Shown one piece after another: positions 4,696 to 37,492 of a stretch of 64,000 nucleotides of DNA. Positions within the stretch are counted from its first letter, which is position 1. Each line of letters opens with the position of its first letter. A program made the position numbers and the translations under genes. The stretch comes from Streptomyces liliiviolaceus (GTDB lineage: Bacteria; Actinomycetota; Actinomycetes; Streptomycetales; Streptomycetaceae). The stretch lies in the NCBI RefSeq assembly GCF_018070025.1, contig NZ_JAGPYQ010000004.1, positions 27,483-91,482 of the forward strand, written 5' to 3'. The notes under the pieces were generated by a model that was given only the letters and a program-made list of their open reading frames with translations, ran no database searches and had not been told where the DNA came from.

Positions 4696-4953
4696 GCCGG
4701 CCACAACACCGGCGGGTGGGTGGGGGTTGTGGCCCGTCATGCCACAGCATCGGCTCCGTGATCAGCCCGCGATGCGATGGCCGCTCTGGAGCGGACCGTC
4801 AGCTTCGGCCTGTGCCGGGCTTTCGCCCTTTCTGTCCAGCGATGCTTGCGGTCGTTTCGGGGCAGGCGTGCGGCCCGTCATGCCCGACTGCTCACCTGGC
4901 GGAGAAGGGGTCCGTGCCCGGTACCGGCCGGTGTCGGTACAAGGGCTCGCGGT

Positions 4954-5337
4954 TCAGTGTTCCGGTGGCCGGTCCGGGGTGCTGTCGCGTGCGGCCTCGG
5001 CCGCCTGCGGCAGCGTGGGGAATACCCGGAAGTGTTCCCGCGTGCCGGTCACCGTCAGTAAGTGCTCCACGTGCTGGGGCAGCGGGCCGATCAGCCAGGG
5101 CAGAGCATGGCCCCGCTGCAGCGGTATCAGTAGGGTGTTGAACGCCTCGGGGCCCAGGTAGGCCACACCGGACAGGTCCACAACGACCCGCTTGCCGGAG
5201 TGCTCCGCCGACTGCACCGCCAGATCAAGCAACTCCACGTCCTCATCGCCATCCAGGTCACCCTCCAGCACCACCAGGGCAAGATGCGGCCACTCCAATA
5301 TCAGACGGACCGGGCTCTTTCCTGGAGGACTCGACAT
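4954..5337 (-). CDS. STAS-domain protein (anti-sigma antagonist-like), copy 1, 127 aa
   Basis: STAS fold: beta strand LALVVLEGDLD, then the VVVDLSGVAYLG strand and an EAFNTLL helix. In active SpoIIAA/BldG-type antagonists this turn reads D-S-S/T-G, with the serine phosphorylated by the partner anti-sigma kinase. Here it reads GPEA, so phospho-control is probably lost. The protein is about 80% identical by eye to the copy at 11146-11529, and about 35 bp of upstream DNA is also shared, so the pair arose by duplication of gene plus promoter. No anti-sigma factor gene is adjacent. Confidence 0.8.
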   Translation of the reverse strand: MSSPPGKSPVRLILEWPHLALVVLEGDLDGDEDVELLDLAVQSAEHSGKRVVVDLSGVAYLGPEAFNTLLIPLQRGHALPWLIGPLPQHVEHLLTVTGTREHFRVFPTLPQAAEAARDSTPDRPPEH

Positions 5338-5372
5338 ACATCCTATTTTCCCCCTGCGGCGACCGTCACGCG
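4954..5372. repeat. Dispersed direct repeat, copy 1 (STAS gene plus upstream DNA)
   Basis: This segment is matched in the same orientation at 11146-11562. The match includes the 5' flank TCCTATTTT(C/G)CCCCTGCGGC, so the promoter region was duplicated with the gene. Confidence 0.75.
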
Positions 5373-5975
5373 CAGCCAGCTCGCCCCGCCGCGTAGCGAG
5401 CGCCTCGCGGCGGACTGCGAGTCCAGCTCGTGCGTAGAGCTGTGAGCCGCTCGGCTATCTTGTCCCGCTCGACCGTCGGGAACAGGGGTTCCGGATCCGG
5501 GGTCGCGGCATCCTGTGACGCCGCGGGGCTGGTCCGCTTTCTGTGGGTCGTACGTCTGCTCGTGTGCGCTTTCCTGCGCGTCGTGCCGGATATGCGGAGC
5601 GGCATGGCCCTCAGCCGTGCAGCCGGTCAACGCCCGGTGTCGGCCCCGGGCAACGCGATGCCTCTTGCGAACACACGTGGTTGTGACACGGGCGGGAGTA
5701 AGGTGGCAAGAACACGGTCACACTTCTCCCGCTGCCCCAGGGCTGCGAATGAGGCGTCCCCCTTCCCCGTGCTGTGCTCCCTCGCCCCGCTTTCGTTCAG
5801 CGAGAGCGGGCACAACCGCCACGAGGTTGGCCGCAGTCGACTCGGGCCATCAGCCGCCATCATCCGTCTCCTCGGATGGGTGCACGACGTCCGTCGGCCG
5901 AGTCCAACCCGCATCGCCGCCCGCCGAGCCTGGCATCAACCATTCGTCCACGTACGGCAGCTGGCAGGAGCTTTC
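5338..5975. other. Intergenic stretch with a possible gene relic
   Basis: No intact gene. On the minus strand near 5420-5500 a short frame (PLFPTVERDKIAERL then TALRTSW) resembles the beginning and end of a common small Streptomyces protein with the middle deleted. This is a recollection-based guess. The rest shows no protein-like frame. Confidence 0.3.
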
Positions 5976-11039: not shown

Positions 11040-11145
11040 CCGCCAGGGCCATGAAGATCAGCCGCGTTGGGCTTCGCGGGAAGTCGTCTGTCCGCGCGCA
11101 CGCTGCGATGGCTGGGGTGCCTGTCCGCGCTGTCCGGCCTGCGGC

Positions 11146-11529
11146 TCATGTCTCCGGGTGCCGGCCCGGCGTGCTGTCACCGGCGGCTTCGGCCGCTTCC
11201 TTCAGCGTCGGGAAAACACGGAAGCGCTGCCTCGCGCCCGTCACCGTCAGCAGTTGCTCCAGTTGCCGGGGCAGTGGACCGGCCAGCCAGGGAAGGGCAC
11301 GGCCCCGCCACAGCGGCATCAGCAGAGTATTGAACGCCTCGGAACCCAGGTACGTCACACCGGACAGGTCCACAACGACCCGCTTGCCGGAGCGCTCCGC
11401 CGACTGCACCGCCAGATCAAGCAACTCCACGTCCTCATCGGCATCCAGGTCACCCTCCAGCACCACCAGGGCAAGATGCGTCCACTCCGAGATCAGACGG
11501 ACCGGGCTCTTTCCCGGGGGGCTCGACAT
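11146..11529 (-). CDS. STAS-domain protein (anti-sigma antagonist-like), copy 2, 127 aa
   Basis: Close paralogue of the protein at 4954-5337, with identical length and the same start (MSSPPGKSPVRLI). It again lacks the phosphorylatable serine: the turn after VVVDLSGVTYLG reads SEAF. The C-terminal helices diverge most (LKEAAEAAGDST versus LPQAAEAARDST). Both copies keep an open frame, suggesting they are maintained; they may act as phospho-insensitive partners for an anti-sigma factor encoded elsewhere (inference). Confidence 0.8.
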   Translation of the reverse strand: MSSPPGKSPVRLISEWTHLALVVLEGDLDADEDVELLDLAVQSAERSGKRVVVDLSGVTYLGSEAFNTLLMPLWRGRALPWLAGPLPRQLEQLLTVTGARQRFRVFPTLKEAAEAAGDSTPGRHPET

Positions 11530-11562
11530 ACATCCTATTTTGCCCCTGCGGCGACCGTCACG
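11146..11562. repeat. Dispersed direct repeat, copy 2 (STAS gene plus upstream DNA)
   Basis: Matches 4954-5372 in the same orientation, including the upstream flank. Homology stops shortly after GCGACCGTCACGC. Confidence 0.75.
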
Positions 11563-11621
11563 CTGCAGTACGTCCTAGGAGGCTGCCTGACGCACCGGTA
11601 TGTGTTTCCAGGAGCGGCCCT

Positions 11622-15185: not shown

Positions 15186-17732
15186 CTACCAGCGCATGCC
15201 CAACGCATCGAGTGCCGCCCGCCGCTCCGCGCTCAGCTTTCCGACCCGGCGGCGGGTGTTGTCCACGAACGCCCCGAGCTTGACCGGCTCGCCGTCCACG
15301 TCCTCAATGTGTTTGCGGGCCGGCCGTAGGTGGCCTTCGCGGGCGTGGAACTGCTGGGCAGCGGTGAGGTTGGTGTTCCACCGCTCATCCTGGGAGCGCC
15401 GTACCGGCACCACGACTTCGCCGTCCGTGGGTGGTTCGATGCCGAGCGTCTCCAGCAGGTACTGCTGCGCGGGCACCAGGCCGTCCCACCCGGCCCGCTG
15501 CGCGGTGATCCAGGCTCCGAGGTCTTCGCCCTGGACGACCAGCTCGCCCGCCCCGGCCGGGAAGCCGCCGCCGGCCTTCGCGTGGGCGAGGGCGAGTCGG
15601 TAGGCCCGCTGCCAGCCGACTTCCCACGCCATCGGGCACCACCCGGGGTCGATCTCCGCCAGTGCCTCCTGCCGGGCTTCTGAGAGCTCCCCGGCGTAGG
15701 AGACATGGGTTTCCCCGGCGGCGCGCCGTACGGCGTTCTCTGCCGCTTTCCTGGCCGCCGCACGCTGGTTCTTGGCCCACACTCCGATCGGCATGGAGCC
15801 GGCGCCGCCCCCAACTCGCTCGGCGCCGCTGCCCCATACGGCCCCGGTGGGCGGTAGGAAGTGCCCGTGTACGGCTGCGTAGGAGCGGGCGACCTCTAGT
15901 CCGGCCTCCCACGCGGACGCGTGTACAGACCAGACCATGCCGGCCTTCTCCAGCTCCGTGACGCGCGAAGCCTCCAGCGACCCGGCCACGTAGTACCGGC
16001 GCTGATCCGCCACCCATACCCCCAGCGGATGCGAACCGGCCGATCCCCACTCCTCTGGCGTGACGTACGTGTACGGCACCCGCAGCTCGCTGTTCCCGGT
16101 CTCGCGCAGCCACCGCGTGGCGGCCTCGATGCCGCGCAACCAGTACGCGCCTTCGGGGTCGATGACGCGCAGCTGCACGAACCGGGTGAGCGCGGCCGGG
16201 TCGCGTTCCTCGCTGAACCGCAGCATCGTCGCCGCCCGCTCCGACACCCGCCGCGTCTCCGGGCCGACGTCGTCCTGGCCGTCGTCCTCACCGTCCGACA
16301 GCTCGCCCTCGTCCTCGCCACGATCGTCGTCGGCAGCGGGCCGGCTGTTGCGCAGCCGGGGGTCCGCGAGCGCCTCGATCGTCTCCGCATCGTGCGCCCG
16401 CAGAGCAGCCAAGATCTTACTGAGATTGTCGTAAGCCGCCGAAGTGAGCAATTCATTCGGACTCTCATCCGGCCCGAGGAGAACCGGAACAATCAGCGTG
16501 GCAAGCTTTCCGTGATCCGGATTCAACCGCAGAGCACGACCAACCATCTGCACGATATCTACCATCGAACCGCGAGCATCCGAAAATAGCACGGAATCAC
16601 ATTCGGCAGTATCAACACCTTCACCCAAAATGCGAACTGAAGAAAGCACCCTCAATTCAGCACGCTTATTCTGATCTTTCCCCAGGAAATCGGAGGCGAA
16701 CTCATTGAGCACGGCCTTGCGGTGCCCGGGAGCGTGCTCGCCGTACAGCCAGTCCGCCCACACCTGATCCGCAGGCGGGTAGGTATCGGGGTCGTCCTCG
16801 GCGAGCCGGGCCGCGACCGCCGGCACCGAGACCGCCATCGCCTCGGCCTCGGTGACCCGGCTGTGGAAGGACAACACGCGCCGGAACCGCTCCTTCGTCG
16901 CCGCGTGCATCAGCCCGCTCTGCACCGCCGCGAGCCGGGCCCCGCGCACGGCATCCGAACCAGTGGCCTCCGTAGCCAGCGCCGCGTACAGCTCGGGATC
17001 GCGGATGTCCAAGCACAGCACCTGATACGGGGCAACGATGCCCCGGCCGACCGCCTCCGAGAGCGTCAGCTTGTACGCCACCGGACCGAAGACGGGCGAG
17101 TCGTCCTCCATCGACGCCACCAACCGCGGCCGCTCGCCTTCGGCCTCCCACACCCTGGCGGTGGCCGTCATGTACAGCCGGCGCTCCGCAGGAAGCTGCG
17201 CCTGGTCGTGCACGGCCGCCCACGGCTTCATCCCATCCCCACTCACGCGATGCGCCTCGTCCACGACCATCAGGCTCCACACCCCCAAACCGGCGGCGTG
17301 CGCGCGCTGCAGGATGCCCAAGCCGACCGACGCGTACGTGGCGAAGACCGTGACGGTCTCCAGGCCAGCCATCCAGGTGACCAGCTCGTCCGGGTCGGTC
17401 GTGCACGGCAGTCCTTGGCTCTCCTCCGCCCGCAGCGAGCACACCCCGACCATCGCCCCCGGACGGCCCGCCCGGCGCCAAGCAGTGGCCATCTGCGTCA
17501 GCAGGTCCAGCGTCGGCACCAAAACCAGCACCCGCCGGGCAGAAAGCCGATGCGCCGACTCGGCACCGATCAGGGTTTTGCCGGAGCCGGTAGCGGCGAT
17601 GACCTGCGTCCTCAATCCCTCCGGCGGCATACGGCCACCGGGCGGCACACCGAGAATACGGACGACATTATCGACTGCCTCAGCCTGGTGTGGACGCAAT
17701 TCCATCTGAGTCACGAGACCTCGCATTCTCAT
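15186..17732 (-). CDS. Terminal-type DEAD/DEAH-box helicase with helicase-associated repeats, 848 aa
   Basis: Superfamily 2 helicase. The N-terminal lobe has motif I ATGSGKT at residues 47-53, a DEAH box at 158-161 and motif III-like MTATA near 192. The C-terminal lobe has ILGEGVDTAECDSVLFSD and QMVGRALRLN near 370-400. An acidic linker (DDDRGEDEGELSDGEDDGQD) follows, then several helicase-associated repeats with W-containing LGVW/IGVW/LGAW units, ending VKLGAFVDNTRRR. This layout is that of the helicase genes found closest to Streptomyces telomeres (TtrA and relatives). Its 5' end is about 230 bp from the telomere-like arms. The ATG at 17732 is used; the Met at residue 10 is an alternative. 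Confidence 0.85.
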   Translation of the reverse strand: MRMRGLVTQMELRPHQAEAVDNVVRILGVPPGGRMPPEGLRTQVIAATGSGKTLIGAESAHRLSARRVLVLVPTLDLLTQMATAWRRAGRPGAMVGVCSLRAEESQGLPCTTDPDELVTWMAGLETVTVFATYASVGLGILQRAHAAGLGVWSLMVVDEAHRVSGDGMKPWAAVHDQAQLPAERRLYMTATARVWEAEGERPRLVASMEDDSPVFGPVAYKLTLSEAVGRGIVAPYQVLCLDIRDPELYAALATEATGSDAVRGARLAAVQSGLMHAATKERFRRVLSFHSRVTEAEAMAVSVPAVAARLAEDDPDTYPPADQVWADWLYGEHAPGHRKAVLNEFASDFLGKDQNKRAELRVLSSVRILGEGVDTAECDSVLFSDARGSMVDIVQMVGRALRLNPDHGKLATLIVPVLLGPDESPNELLTSAAYDNLSKILAALRAHDAETIEALADPRLRNSRPAADDDRGEDEGELSDGEDDGQDDVGPETRRVSERAATMLRFSEERDPAALTRFVQLRVIDPEGAYWLRGIEAATRWLRETGNSELRVPYTYVTPEEWGSAGSHPLGVWVADQRRYYVAGSLEASRVTELEKAGMVWSVHASAWEAGLEVARSYAAVHGHFLPPTGAVWGSGAERVGGGAGSMPIGVWAKNQRAAARKAAENAVRRAAGETHVSYAGELSEARQEALAEIDPGWCPMAWEVGWQRAYRLALAHAKAGGGFPAGAGELVVQGEDLGAWITAQRAGWDGLVPAQQYLLETLGIEPPTDGEVVVPVRRSQDERWNTNLTAAQQFHAREGHLRPARKHIEDVDGEPVKLGAFVDNTRRRVGKLSAERRAALDALGMRW

Positions 17733-17960
17733 TATTCGGGGAGGTGGTCTGTCCTTAACCCGGATTCCATCCAGGATCCAAAATGACGAATCCTTCGACT
17801 CTCACAGATCGGCGTCTTTTCGGACCCTTGCAGGAGGGGGAGGTACTGAGCCATCATCCCAGAAGCAAGCCGAGAACAGAAGTGACGCACTCAGTTTGTT
17901 CGGAAGTGGCCTGAACTTGTTCGACAGCGACCGGACCCGACGGGATGCGGTCCACCTCGA
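17733..17960. other. Helicase upstream region
   Basis: Non-coding spacer between the helicase start and the telomere-like repeat. It is somewhat AT-richer than its surroundings and has a TTGTTCG motif twice (near 17898 and 17918). Confidence 0.45.
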
Positions 17961-18308
17961 CCCCCTACCTTGCAGCCAGCCGTCTTTTCTGTCGCGCGCG
18001 GAGCGCGTGGCAGTACCTGTACGGGACTGCGGAGCAGGCCTGTACAGGGTTAGGATCGGGCGAAGCCGGATCCGTCCCGGATCGCGGAGCGATTCCGGGC
18101 AGGCGGAACGGAGTCGTTACCGTCGCTTGCGACGGAGCATTCCACTCCGTGGAATGCGGCGGAACTCCGTCCCGCCCCCGGAATCGCTCCGCGATCCGGG
18201 ACGGATCCGGCTTCGCCCGATCCTCACCCTGTACAGGCCTGCTCCGCAGCCCCGTACAGGTGCGCCCCGCGCTCCGCGCGCGACAGGAAGGGCGCAGCAG
18301 TAGGGGCG
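17961..18308. repeat. Head-to-head telomere-like inverted repeat
   Basis: Two arms of about 150 bp (about 17961-18109 and 18167-18308), roughly 90-95% identical by eye, inverted around 18138. On the plus strand the left arm has hairpins with purine triloops: CGCGC-GGA-GCGCG (18000-18002), CTGC-GGA-GCAG (18031-18033, enclosed by CCTGTAC/GTACAGG), GGC-GAA-GCC (18062-18064) and ATCGC-GGA-GCGAT (18086-18088). The right arm has the exact complements with TCC/TTC loops at 18188, 18212, 18243 and 18273. Small C-GNA-G hairpins on the 3' strand, all in this polarity, are the hallmark of Streptomyces telomeres. The spacer differs between sides: about 20 extra bases with GTCGC-TT-GCGAC lie on the left. 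Confidence 0.8.
18137..18157. repeat. Small palindrome beside the fusion axis
   Basis: GCATTCCAC and GTGGAATGC flank TCC (GGA on the minus strand). It lies about 9 bp right of the symmetry axis of the large arms and may be the outermost telomeric palindrome of one end. Confidence 0.6.
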
Positions 18309-18489
18309 GCCCCCTCGCTGCGGTCGGCTTCAGTCGCGGATCATGCGTCATTTCTAGAGCCTGGATAAATTCTGGTATTAATACCTACCACAGATTCCGG
18401 ACGCCAGGAAGGAAATTCACCCACGGAACAAGGATTCATAGCAACACGAAACCTCACCAAATTCTACCTTGGGTGCCCTCAGGGAAGGG

Positions 18490-18540
18490 TTTGCAATTTC
18501 ACTCCATAAAGAAATCTATGGTATACTTATAACATAGGAG
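18490..18540 (+). promoter_or_regulatory. Probable promoter of the AT-rich island
   Basis: AT-rich segment with TATGGTATACTTATAACAT ending about 30 bases before a GAGGTG ribosome binding site. TATACT is a good -10 candidate; no -35 box stands at the right distance. Confidence 0.35.
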
Positions 18541-18570
18541 TAGCCCCCTACTGAAACAGAGGTGAAGCCT

Positions 18571-18669
18571 ATGGATAACCCCACCGGGAGAGGAAGTGAA
18601 ATGAGCAATGGGAATTGCAGAAACAATGTACGTTCTAGGTACAGTATATTACGCAATCTGCCTCTTTGA
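18571..18669 (+). CDS. Possible 32-aa peptide
   Basis: The ATG at 18571 follows GAGGTGAAGCCT (good ribosome binding site). The product is polar (MDNPTGRGSEMSNGNCRNN and a short tail). A second in-frame ATG at 18601 follows AGGAAG with good spacing. It overlaps the 26-aa frame below; only one of the two may be real. Confidence 0.35.
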   Translation: MDNPTGRGSEMSNGNCRNNVRSRYSILRNLPL

Positions 18670-18688
18670 GAAGTTCTATCGCAGATGA
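18608..18688 (+). CDS. Possible 26-aa hydrophobic peptide
   Basis: The frame encodes MGIAETMYVLGTVYYAICLF followed by the charged tail EKFYRR: one membrane helix with a basic end, the layout of type I toxins and other small membrane peptides. AGGAAG lies 11 bases upstream. The transcript would end in the strong hairpin at 18691. The local base composition is much lower in GC than the rest of the window. Function is inferred from layout only. Confidence 0.4.
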   Translation: MGIAETMYVLGTVYYAICLFEKFYRR

Positions 18689-18690
18689 TA

Positions 18691-18723
18691 AAAGGGCCCT
18701 CGGCTACTAGTCGAGGGCCCTTT
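18691..18723 (+). terminator. Rho-independent terminator
   Basis: Perfect stem AAAGGGCCCTCG with a short loop, followed by TTTCCTATTCTTTCT. It begins 2 bases after the stop of the 26-aa frame. Confidence 0.8.
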
Positions 18724-18861
18724 CCTATTCTTTCTAAAATTCTGCCAAGAAAATTTTCTAAGGCTCTCCCGCAGGGATGATCTGTCTCTCAGACACCCCC
18801 GAACGTGTGTATTGCATGCGGAGGTGGAACTTTAGAGGCTTGTAGCAGCGTTGCGGTGTAC

Positions 18862-27204: not shown

Positions 27205-27741
27205 TTAAGCGGCGAAGCCGATGTTGGTGACGTACTCGTACTGGCCCCACTGGGAGCCGAGGTCGATGACCTGGTCCACCCACGCCTCGTCCAGCTGCTG
27301 GCCGTCGCCGGCGGCCCATGCACCGACGATGCGGTTCCAGTGGCGGACGTTCATGGTGCGGAACTCCATGGCGCGCTGGCGGGGCCGGTCGACCTGGGAC
27401 TGGTTGAGCGGGTGGATTTCCACCCGGGTGCCGCGGCCGTCGCGGTTGAGCCGGGCGAGCAGATACCGCGCGACATTCTCCCGCCGCACAGTCCGATAGG
27501 CCTGCTCGATCACGGCGAGGTTCTTCCTGGAGGGCGTGCGGGTGCCGGCCTGCCAGGCGCGCAGAGTGCGGCCGGTAACGTTCAGACCGGCCGCGCGGGC
27601 GGCATCAAGAGCGTGGGCGCTGCGGGTGAGGTAGTTCAGGCGGGCTGTCAGGCCGCGGCGGGCGGTGACAGGGGTGGCGATGTAACCGGCGAGCGCGTCC
27701 AGCTGCCGGGCGACAGCTTCCTGGCACTTCCGCTTTGCCCT
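27205..27741 (-). pseudogene. 5'-truncated second copy of the Tpg-like gene
   Basis: From EAVARQLDALAGYIATPVTA to the stop (VTNIGFAA) it matches the intact gene at 32831 with about 90% identity by eye. The first 19 codons, including the start, are missing: at about 27735 the sequence switches abruptly to lower-GC DNA and no ATG or GTG remains in frame upstream. An internal GTG (IEQAYRTVRREN) could give a 102-aa product without the HTH. Confidence 0.75.
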
Positions 27742-29330: not shown

Positions 29331-29368
29331 CTTCCATCCCTGCATCGTTAACGATGCAGGGATGGAAG
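29331..29368. promoter_or_regulatory. 38-bp perfect palindrome
   Basis: CTTCCATCCCTGCATCGTT followed directly by its reverse complement, with no loop. It sits 32 bp upstream of the sigma factor start and 4 bp after the stop of the gene at 29373. It may be an operator for a dimeric regulator or a terminator; a T-rich tail is weak (TTATCTT on the minus strand). Confidence 0.75.
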
Positions 29369-32830: not shown

Positions 32831-33403
32831 TCAAGCGGCGAAGCCGATGTTGGTGACGTACTCGTACTGGCCCCACTGCGAGCCGAGGTCGACGACCTGG
32901 TCCACCCACGCCTCATCCAGCTCCCGCTCGTCGCCGGCTGCCCACGCGCCGACGATGCGGTCCCACCGTCGGACGTTCATGGTGCGGAACTCCATAGCGC
33001 GCTGGCGCGGCCGGTCGACCTGCGACTGGTTGAGCGGGTGGATCTCCACACGGGTGCCGCGGCCGTCGCGGTTGAGGCGGGCGAGCAGGTAGCGGGCAAC
33101 GTTCTCCCGCCGCACGGTCCGGTACGCCTGTTCGATCACGGCGAGGTTCTTTCGGGAGGGTGTGCGGGTGCCGGCCTGCCAGGCGCGCAGGGTGCGGCCG
33201 GTGACGGTCAGTCCGGCCGCGCGGGCAGCATCCAGGGCGTGGGTGCTGCGGGTGAGGTAGTTCAGGCGCGCCGTCAGGCCGCGTCGGGCGGTGACGGGGG
33301 TGGCGATGTAGCCGGCGAGGTCGTCCAGTTGCCGGGCGACGGCTTCGTGGCCTTTGAGGCCGCGGGCGCCGTACTTGCCGAACTCGATGTTCCGCTCAGG
33401 CAT
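32831..33403 (-). CDS. tpg: Telomere terminal protein (Tpg-like), 190 aa
   Basis: The layout fits Tpg: an N-terminal basic stretch (TARRGLTARLNYLTRS), an HTH (AARAAGLTVTGRTLRAWQAG) followed by a K/R-rich helix (NLAVIEQAYRTVRREN), then a beta-rich and helical C-terminal half (WDRIVGAWAAGDERELDEAW). Tpg proteins are covalently bound to the 5' telomere ends of Streptomyces linear replicons and prime end patching. The protein lies 100 bp downstream of a Tap-like gene in the same direction, the tap-tpg order known from Streptomyces. Sequence identity to S. coelicolor Tpg is low as I recall it, so this is a divergent type. A truncated copy is at 27205. Confidence 0.65.
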   Translation of the reverse strand: MPERNIEFGKYGARGLKGHEAVARQLDDLAGYIATPVTARRGLTARLNYLTRSTHALDAARAAGLTVTGRTLRAWQAGTRTPSRKNLAVIEQAYRTVRRENVARYLLARLNRDGRGTRVEIHPLNQSQVDRPRQRAMEFRTMNVRRWDRIVGAWAAGDERELDEAWVDQVVDLGSQWGQYEYVTNIGFAA

Positions 33404-33503
33404 CGTCTCTTCCGAATCCAGAGTGTTGGATCACTGTACGGGGCTGTGAGCGCCGATCTCCTGCCCCGGCGGGGGGAATTGACGCCGGGACAGGGAAACG
33501 GCG

Positions 33504-35054
33504 TCAGGAGGTGCGCTCAGGGGGCTCCGCGGTGGTGCTGGGGTCGGTGCCGACGGTGTAGGTGTCCTTGACCTTCACCTCGGCCACGCCGCGGCCCTCG
33601 GGGAAGACCGCCCGCCAGTCACCGGCCACATGCAGTTCGTCGGTGCCCATGGCGCGCACGACCAGGAGGCCTTCGTCGTAGGCGCGGTGGACTTTCCACC
33701 ACAGGTTCGCGAACGCCTGGGCGCGGATGAGGTGCATCCAGTCGGTGCGGTAGAGCTCGCGGTTGTAGTTCGACTCCCCCAGCGTGGAGACGAACTTGGA
33801 GTACATGGCCTTCACGTACTCCAGCGTCACCTGGTCGTCGTCGGAGATCGCCCGGTCCCGGGCGTCCTTCAGCGCGATGCGGAACTTCTCCAGCAGGCCC
33901 TCGGTCGCCCCGGACGTCCACGACTCGTGGATCTCGGGCGGGTCGCACATCCCGTACTTCGGGCCCGACAGGCGCAGCAGCAGGCGCAGCGTCGGCTCGG
34001 TCACCCACAGAGGGCCCGGCTCGTCCCGGTTACCGATCGGATTCGGCAGCACCGCCCCGTGCTCCCAGACCGGAGGGGTGATCAGGTGCAGGCCAGCGCG
34101 GCGGCGGTCGTGGTGGTTGTTGGTGGAGTGTTCAAGCTGACCGAGCGGGAGGTGGGTCTTCAACGCGCTGAGGTAGGCGCCGTTGATGTCGAGTGCCGTG
34201 ATCTCGTGCCGGCCGGTGGGGAGCTCAGGTCGGCTCCACTTGGGGCGGGCTTCCCAGACCTGGTCGGCACCGCGTGCGGTCTGCTTGCGCAGGATGTCGG
34301 GCAGCCATGGGTGCGCGACGACGTCGTAACGCCCGCCCTTGCGGGTGTCGTCCAGCAGCGCCATCGCATCCGGGATCGCCCGCTTGATCAGAGCGACGGT
34401 CGCCGCCTCGACATCCCCGGCGTGTTCGGCGAGCGCGGCCGCCACCGCGGAACCGATCCGGTCCGGGGCATCGGCGGCCTGCAGACGGCGGCCGACCGGC
34501 ACCACCTTCACCCCGCCGACCGCGGGGCACGGCTTCCTGGCGGGCGCCGGCTGCCGCGGTGCCGTGCGAGGCGCGAGCTTCTCTGCCTGCACGGGCACGG
34601 GCGCAGATGCGGCCGAGGCACACTCGGCGGGGTCCAGGTGCTGGGGGAACCCTTCGACCTGATGGCGGGCCGGCTGCCCGCACAGTACGCACGGCTGCAC
34701 GACGGCCAGCATGGCGACGTCGTCGGTGTCGTCGGTCTGCTCGGCATCCGCCGACTGGTCGTCCGCGAGCTGGCCGTCGGCCGCGGCCTCCGTAGCCGCG
34801 CTGGCGGTGTCCAGCTTGGTGCGAGCGCTTTCGAGGAAGTACGCGTACGCCTCCCGCACTTCCTTGTCGCTGGGATCACGGCCGGTTTCCCATCCGCCGA
34901 CGGTCGACGGGCTCACCTTCAGGGCCTGCGCAAGCTGCCCGCGGGTGAGGTTCAGGCTCTCGCGCAGCCGGCGCCGCTCCTCGGCCGACGGCAGCGGAGT
35001 CCGCTCCGACGACGCGGAGGCGAGCAGGGTGTCGATCGCGTCGAAGTCCGCCAT
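33504..35054 (-). CDS. tap: Telomere-associated protein (Tap-like), 516 aa
   Basis: The N-terminus has the Tap pattern: FDAIDTLLASASSERTPLPS then an Xre-type HTH (LTRGQLAQALKVSPSTVGGW, ETGRDPSD). A long acidic and Pro-rich linker with cysteines follows. The C-terminal domain (about 265-505) has the polymerase-like Tap motifs: ITALDINGAYLSAL, LWVTEPTLRLLL, LYRTDWMHLIRAQAFANLWW and AMGTDELHVAGDW. Tap binds telomeric 3' overhangs and recruits Tpg (family knowledge). It is shorter than the roughly 740 aa of the chromosomal form. It starts by TGATG overlap with the gene at 35054. Confidence 0.72.
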   Translation of the reverse strand: MADFDAIDTLLASASSERTPLPSAEERRRLRESLNLTRGQLAQALKVSPSTVGGWETGRDPSDKEVREAYAYFLESARTKLDTASAATEAAADGQLADDQSADAEQTDDTDDVAMLAVVQPCVLCGQPARHQVEGFPQHLDPAECASAASAPVPVQAEKLAPRTAPRQPAPARKPCPAVGGVKVVPVGRRLQAADAPDRIGSAVAAALAEHAGDVEAATVALIKRAIPDAMALLDDTRKGGRYDVVAHPWLPDILRKQTARGADQVWEARPKWSRPELPTGRHEITALDINGAYLSALKTHLPLGQLEHSTNNHHDRRRAGLHLITPPVWEHGAVLPNPIGNRDEPGPLWVTEPTLRLLLRLSGPKYGMCDPPEIHESWTSGATEGLLEKFRIALKDARDRAISDDDQVTLEYVKAMYSKFVSTLGESNYNRELYRTDWMHLIRAQAFANLWWKVHRAYDEGLLVVRAMGTDELHVAGDWRAVFPEGRGVAEVKVKDTYTVGTDPSTTAEPPERTS

Positions 35055-36938: not shown

Positions 36939-37210
36939 GGCGGGTCATCTCCCCAGATTGGGGAGCCGTGACCAACAGATGTGACCTGGTAGTACCCGCC
37001 GATAGTGGCGTAGCGCGAGATACCGCGCTTATCCTTGGGTACAGGTGACCACGCGGGCTCTTGAGCCCACGGGCACACCGGCTGCGAGGTCACCTCGCTG
37101 CTCACGACTCAAGCTTTTGTCAGGGTGCGAGTCGATTCGCTAGGGAGCGGTCCTGTTGTGGCGACAGGGCCGCTTCAGCGTTTCTAGGGGCCAAGTGGCA
37201 TTAGTGCTCC
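36939..37210. promoter_or_regulatory. Dyad-rich control region
   Basis: Upstream of the rep-tap-tpg block. It has CTCCCCAGATTGGGGAG (about 36950), GGGCTCTTGAGCCC (37055-37068) and GCGAGGTCACCTCGC (about 37084-37098), plus repeated GTGACC/GGTCAC motifs. It is probably the promoter and operator region and may be part of the origin. Confidence 0.5.
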
Positions 37211-37492
37211 TCAGCCTGCCTGTCGTGTCAGAGCGGAACGGCTTGCGATCTCTGCTGGGTATTTCTCTGCCCAGCCGTTCAACAAGCGAGCGTAGGCTTC
37301 CAAGCGTCGGCGGTAAGGCTTGGCCTGGCCGGTCTCCCAGCGGTGAAACGCAACCCTGGTGACTCCGAAAACCTCAGCGACCTCGTCCTGCGTCAATCCG
37401 GCAGCCTTGCGGAGACGGGCTCGTACTTCTGGCGCAGGCAGGACCTCTGGCCGCGCGAGTAGAGCGTCGACCGCATCAAGTAGTTCAGACAC
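37211..37492 (-). CDS. Tap-N-like HTH protein, 93 aa
   Basis: Consists only of the N-terminal module of Tap: LLDAVDALLARPEVLPAPEV, HTH LTQDEVAEVFGVTRVAFHRW ETGQAK, and AYARLLNGWAEKYPAE. It ends with a natural stop. It may be a stand-alone regulator derived from tap that binds the same sites in the control region next to it (inference), or a truncated tap. Confidence 0.7.
   Translation of the reverse strand: MSELLDAVDALLARPEVLPAPEVRARLRKAAGLTQDEVAEVFGVTRVAFHRWETGQAKPYRRRLEAYARLLNGWAEKYPAEIASRSALTRQAG

Follow-up and report, generated by a model that had tools for sequence, protein, structure and literature searches.

The arms of an inverted repeat in Streptomyces liliiviolaceus look like two telomeres joined head to head, raising the question of how two such ends came to lie inside a contig. 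The repeat is located in a stretch of 64,000 nt (the window; G000:C4:27483-91482) of the smallest of the four contigs of this genome: C1 (8,435,489 bp), C2 (2,513,292 bp), C3 (92,882 bp) and C4 (91,482 bp). A reading made from the sequence alone had offered three explanations, namely, fusion of two linear replicons, circularization of one linear plasmid or an assembly join. Of these, the assembly join is favored by the rotation of the contig and by false joins in C2 and C3. Our preferred reading, with a probability of about 0.94, is that C4 is a linear plasmid with telomeres of the Sg2247 type and that the join is a nonbiological artefact of assembly. Coordinates of the features are collected in Table 1.

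Table 1. Features of the window discussed in the text (positions are those of the window unless C4 is named)
Feature	Position	Strand	Remarks
Terminal helicase with helicase-associated domains, 848 aa	15186..17732	-	Pfam HA, ResIII, DEAD, Helicase_C
Left arm, truncated telomere (probably one linear-plasmid end)	17961..18114	+	3′ end on + strand
Probable artificial junction of two contig ends	18114..18115	.	C4:45596/45597; C4 midpoint 45741
Right arm, truncated telomere (probably the other plasmid end)	18115..18308	-	3′ end on - strand
Second Tpg-like copy, 5′-truncated	27208..27729	-	residues 17-190, 94% identical
Tpg-like protein, 190 aa, candidate terminal protein	32831..33403	-	directly downstream of Tap-like gene
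Tap-like protein, 516 aa, HTH	33504..35054	-	N-terminal match to Tap model NF047542

The inverted arms described around 18138 were confirmed. An 85-nt pair (18015-18099 and 18177-18261) was 98% complementary, an outer pair (17981-18011 and 18264-18294) 87% and a further pair (18102-18114 and 18164-18176) 92%; the centers of the three pairs fell at 18137.5 to 18139, and the center of the repeat, 18138, corresponds to C4:45620. In a blastn comparison of the whole genome, the repeat matched itself in inverted orientation with an E value of 5.5e-97. Hairpins with GNA triloops and a perfect stem of at least 5 numbered two to three within 154 nt at the repeat and at most one elsewhere in the 64 kb. 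Chance palindromes were ruled out by this self-match and by the absence of a similar hairpin cluster elsewhere in the window.

Each arm was folded as single-stranded DNA and compared with shuffles, as the sequence-only reading had suggested. The left 3′ strand formed four stems with loops of GGA, GGA, GAA and GGA (-42.3 kcal/mol, z -3.45), while its complement reached -34.4 kcal/mol (z -1.61). The right 3′ strand reached -69.1 kcal/mol (z -6.12) and its complement, which was also far from shuffles, -61.9 kcal/mol (z -5.52). Both 3′ strands were more stable than their complements, in line with the claim that the arms have the polarity of Streptomyces telomeres, and both carried stem-loops with GGA or GAA loops; stem-loops on the 3′ strand with GGA, GAA or GTA loops are one of the features by which Sg2247-type telomeres are recognized. 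The claim of symmetric arms was borne out except at the center. Following its four complete hairpins, the left arm breaks off after GGCGGAACGGAGT, within a fifth. Position 18115 (CGTTACC...) is the first of the right arm, which includes 45 nt (18115-18159) that belong to the right telomere and have no counterpart in the left arm; the right arm also contains two more GGA hairpins and a hairpin with a CAAG loop, which are incomplete in or absent from the left arm. At the center the two halves do not match each other, and mirror symmetry is limited to the common inner hairpins. In the hairpin at 18121-18136 the loop is CTTG/CAAG, whereas triloops occupy this place in relatives (TTC/GAA in G128 and TGC/GCA in Streptomyces apricus); the four-base loop is either a true variant or an indel error at a contig end.

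Similar sequences were located at the ends of other replicons. A plasmid search with window positions 17500-18800 matched 46 records, and among the best 40 of these, five reached the arms, the remaining 35 matching on the helicase side only. All five arm-matching records were marked as linear, and the matches ended 56 to 62 nt from the left record end in three cases and 90 to 102 nt from the right end in two. The termini of pRLB1-9.2 (NZ_CP041652.2), NZ_CP109367, NZ_CP108047, NZ_CP108048 and NZ_CP108301 aligned with both arms; these plasmids are recorded as linear with telomeres at their ends, whereas the telomeres of C4 are internal in the assembly. Across the genus, 14 of 295 genomes, G000 included, matched the arms. 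In all seven other genomes with an E value below 1e-6 (G128, G109, G208, G087, G222, G201 and G221) the match was at the end of a contig or replicon, and every match listed there lay no more than 235 nt from such an end. Six genomes matched weakly (E values of 5e-5 to 1e-3), two of them near contig ends and four by short, internal stretches. Internal copies of the repeat in unrelated genomes, which the sequence-only reading had named as evidence against its proposal, were not observed beyond these four short, weak matches.

An alignment of ten telomeres supported the stems, with 84.1% of its cells paired, compared to 27.5 to 41.0% for slid structures, a comparison favoring the former as the structure was taken from one of the ten. 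Changes on both sides were observed for 18 of 55 pairs versus 10.8 in shuffles, and the number of pair types was not above that of shuffles (reached by 197 of 500). Judged by their sequence, the arms are genuine Streptomyces-type telomeres. Nonarchetypal telomeres with GGA loops have been described in a population of Streptomyces, plasmid pRLB1-9.2 included (PMC7205883).

The proposal that the telomere is nonarchetypal held, yet the class is not new. No match to the archetypal 13-nt palindrome I, CCCGCGGAGCGGG, was detected with up to one mismatch in the window, from which the tips are missing, and relatives with complete tips carry GTCTGCTCCGCAGAC where archetypal telomeres have CCCGCGGAGCGGG. 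Six telomere classes are distinguished in PMC8743542, with pSCAT and one pSHJG1 end placed in the Sg2247 class. Membership in it is judged by blastn similarity of the terminal 36 to 150 bp to a known member. Over its first 46 nt, the left end of G128:C1 was 97.8% identical to the left end of pSCAT and 95.7% identical to that of pSHJG1, and the body of the right arm, in which the tip itself is absent, matched the left end of pSHJG1 (E value of 3.4e-5, 69% over 128 columns). The window arms have the GGA/GAA loops and polarity in common with Sg2247-type telomeres (the S. rimosus/S. griseus 2247 class; pSCAT and pSHJG1), whereas their inner hairpin array has diverged from that of the left end of pSHJG1. 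Comparison with the known classes thus points, by way of close relatives with complete ends, to the Sg2247 type, of which the window arms would be new members. The Sg2247-type end of pSHJG1 (NC_017766) is the right-hand one according to PMC8743542, whereas the matching end in record CP003276 is the left one and the other end starts with the archetypal palindrome. A literature search for Sg2247 found no paper beyond PMC8743542. Plasmid pSGZL, a member of the Sg2247 class listed in that paper, was only 80.4% identical to the G128 tip. Its record (NZ_CP003988.1; L083 and L084) is marked as circular, yet the same telomere-like sequence is present, inverted, at both ends; pSGZL is probably another linear plasmid with a wrong topology.

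Complete reference telomeres were available from both ends of G128:C1 and from S. apricus NZ_VDFC01000103, a contig that starts exactly with GTCTGCTCCGCAGAC. The right telomere of the window was without the outermost 37 nt relative to S. apricus or 43 to 44 nt relative to G128, palindrome I and most of palindrome II being missing. Beyond the end of the left arm at 18114 lie a further 87 nt (S. apricus) or 93 to 94 nt (G128), and the join is asymmetric in that the right tip is 37 to 44 nt short and the left tip 87 to 94 nt short. The palindrome I of relatives was absent at both telomere tips, as would be the case if the contigs ended before the true tips; a search for GTCTGCTCCGCAGAC with up to two mismatches detected the inner hairpins at 18025-18039 and 18237-18251 and one distant site, each with two mismatches. 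The outer sequences expected beyond 18115 (37 to 44 nt) and 18114 (87 to 94 nt) would include CGACGCGNNGNCGCTACGCG and GTCTGCTCCGCAGAC. Telomere ends described in PMC7205883 needed extension with additional reads. Among the titles listed in literature searches, none concerned the junction itself.

All four contigs of G000 were examined at their origins and midpoints. Each starts exactly at the ATG or GTG of a plus-strand ORF. The start codons of C2 and C3 lie inside a gene that is open across the contig origin; at base 1 of C2, a response-regulator receiver domain is cut and begins only at profile position 41 of 111, and the origin-spanning protein of C3 had no Pfam match. An AAGGAG motif is present at the end of C4, upstream of the ATG at base 1, and C4 appears to close on itself. 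The tail and head of C1 were neighbors in four of four relatives (G007, G009, G013 and G015). Positions C2:1257208-1261407 are 100% identical to C3:50787-46588 in reverse, an overlap of 4,200 bp that runs exactly from join to join. At the C2 join, a cut thiolase gene, complete across the same point in C3, adjoins a phosphotransferase gene truncated at profile position 158 of 239. At the C3 join, a terminal-helicase gene without its N-terminal part adjoins the sequence that immediately precedes an acyl-CoA dehydrogenase gene. The exact overlap and the cut genes indicated that the midcontig joins of C2 and C3 are false, being due to the pasting together of contig ends. From this overlap of two contig ends, hidden by rotation, it would follow that C2 and C3 should be joined.

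The joins lie 561 bp (C2), 146 bp (C3) and 145 bp (C4) from the contig midpoints, with a chance of about 0.3% for a join so near the midpoint in C4 alone. Base 1 is nearer to the original midpoint of C4 (C4:91337) than the start of any ORF of 120 aa or more in the ORF list of the window. The exact midpoint of C1 is collinear in relatives over about -2.7 to +3.8 kb. In six of six relatives, the main block of synteny stops at C1:4221244, a point 3.5 kb beyond the midpoint. Positions C1:4238876-4239140 matched G013 at 4,948-5,178 and, inverted, at 9,169,109-9,169,339 on a contig some 9.2 Mb long, matches whose placement is consistent with terminal repeats. We infer that C1 to C3 may form one linear chromosome of about 11 Mb, C3 ending in a terminal-helicase gene. 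Circlator rotates a contig to the forward-strand gene nearest its middle (PMC4699355), and C4 likewise starts at a gene near the original contig middle; software working in this way would yield the pattern observed. Rotation is described in PMC4699355 for circular contigs, whereas here linear contigs were rotated, implying stand-alone use of this program or another tool.

On our preferred reading, C4 would therefore be a linear plasmid of some 91.5 kb, not counting the missing tips; it would start at window position 18115, extend rightward to the contig end and continue from contig base 1 to window position 18114. Its ends would be short, diverged terminal inverted repeats with 3′ strands that fold into a row of hairpins with mostly GNA loops, and, by analogy with the family, the telomeres would presumably be finished by terminal-protein-primed end patching. 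The linear contig yielded by the assembler would have fallen 37 to 94 nt short of the real tips. Taken as circular in a later start-fixing step, this contig would have been cut near its middle, where a gene was predicted to start, and the cut and rotation would have brought the two telomeric ends side by side. The sequence shows that all four contigs were cut at a start codon and that C2 and C3 were rotated across false joins; we infer the same cause for the join of C4, probably with Circlator-like software.

The helicase that the sequence-only reading had placed on the left was confirmed by four Pfam matches (Table 1). The gene is transcribed inward from the telomere, and, among six loci of helicase relatives, five start 42 to 649 nt from a contig end and one is a partial match. 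The flanks of the arms are unequal, with the helicase beside the left arm and none directly beside the right, as might be expected had two linear replicons fused at their telomeres. The linear plasmid NZ_CP108048 is similarly unequal, with a helicase annotated in its first 3 kb and none in its last 3 kb, and the AAGGAG motif before the ATG at base 1 suggests that C4 closes on itself and so has one pair of ends only; a fusion is, consequently, very improbable. Hairpin-telomere systems, which depend on a telomere resolvase, have head-to-head telomere junctions as replication intermediates, and the join could be read as such a dimer junction. The differing flanks and the asymmetry of the junction argue against this reading, as do the fetched relatives, linear records whose ends carry the hairpin-array telomere of Streptomyces; a dimer junction is the most remote of the explanations considered.

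Circularization in the cell, by end-to-end joining of damaged telomeres, would account for the loss of both tips, and circularization after loss of tap/tpg function is documented in Streptomyces (PMC8743542 and PMC8743545). This explanation is improbable, if less so than the preceding two, as the contig was cut at a start codon and has the join at its midpoint, two sister contigs have similar false joins and an open Tap-like/Tpg-like pair is retained on C4. Moreover, two circularizations described in PMC8743545 lost 88 to 120 kb per chromosome end compared to less than 100 nt here. An assembly artefact on a linear plasmid remains the reading that we prefer, with a small probability left for a circular form, if only in a minority of molecules.

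The sequence-only reading had also placed Tap and Tpg genes to the right of the repeat, which was borne out in part. The first protein matched the N-terminal part of the Tap model; the match (E value of 1.4e-20; 73.6 bits against a cutoff of 600) covered residues 4 to 172 only and was not the full-length match demanded of a Tap. The 190-aa protein matched no Pfam or NCBIfam model. Of its 917 homologues, the 120 listed included none named as a Tpg, the names being transcriptional regulator, helix-turn-helix domain-containing or hypothetical protein, or none. Among the matches listed, the Tap-like protein (74 to 78%) and the Tpg-like protein (77 to 87%) were each present on four of the five fetched plasmids with the same telomere, the fifth, NZ_CP108047, being absent for both. 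The two are neighbors on pRLB1-9.2, where they are annotated solely as transcriptional regulators.

A telomere-tip pattern was detected in 20 of 295 genomes, draft assemblies often being without tips. Among the matches listed, the 190-aa family (at least 60% identity) was present in 17 of these 20 genomes and in 51 of the 275 genomes without this pattern, the 51 including G000 and four partial matches (Fisher P of 1.7e-9, ignoring kinship). The three exceptions were G088 (58%), G259 (a weak match) and G252 (none at this threshold), whose match to the tip pattern is a divergent sequence. Gene and tip were on one contig in 9 of the 17 genomes and on different contigs in the other 8; the distance was up to 20 kb in seven of the nine (G051, G109, G128, G147, G161, G207 and G208) and about 50 kb in G104 and G262. 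In PMC8743542, Tap, Tpg, Tac and Tpc are reported as undetected in genomes with Sg2247-type telomeres, with no tap or tpg found in the chromosomes of S. rimosus and S. albidoflavus J1074; the paper also notes that tap and tpg occur in the two strains of S. hygroscopicus that carry hybrid plasmids and that others have described a putative Tap in J1074. The HTH pair at 32831-35054 is, on this co-occurrence, a tentative candidate, with chances slightly below even, for a dedicated end-patching system of Sg2247-type telomeres.

Other repeats and copies were also observed. A further full-length Tpg-like copy (88%) is located at C1:5071778-5072347, and a fragment at 37202-37480 on the minus strand has 34% identity to the N terminus of the Tap-like protein. 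A perfect 38-bp palindrome is present at 29331-29368, outside the minus-strand ORFs listed there, and a direct repeat of about 428 bp with 87% identity at 4949-5375 and 11141-11568.

The join could mislead any use of this assembly for inferring plasmid circularization or telomere fusion, and the same rotation has pasted unrelated contig ends together in C2 and C3. In linear Streptomyces replicons rotated in this way, telomeres would be hidden in midcontig and missed by surveys based on contig ends. If the lead on the Tap-like and Tpg-like proteins is true, a known telomere class would gain testable candidates for its missing end-patching proteins.
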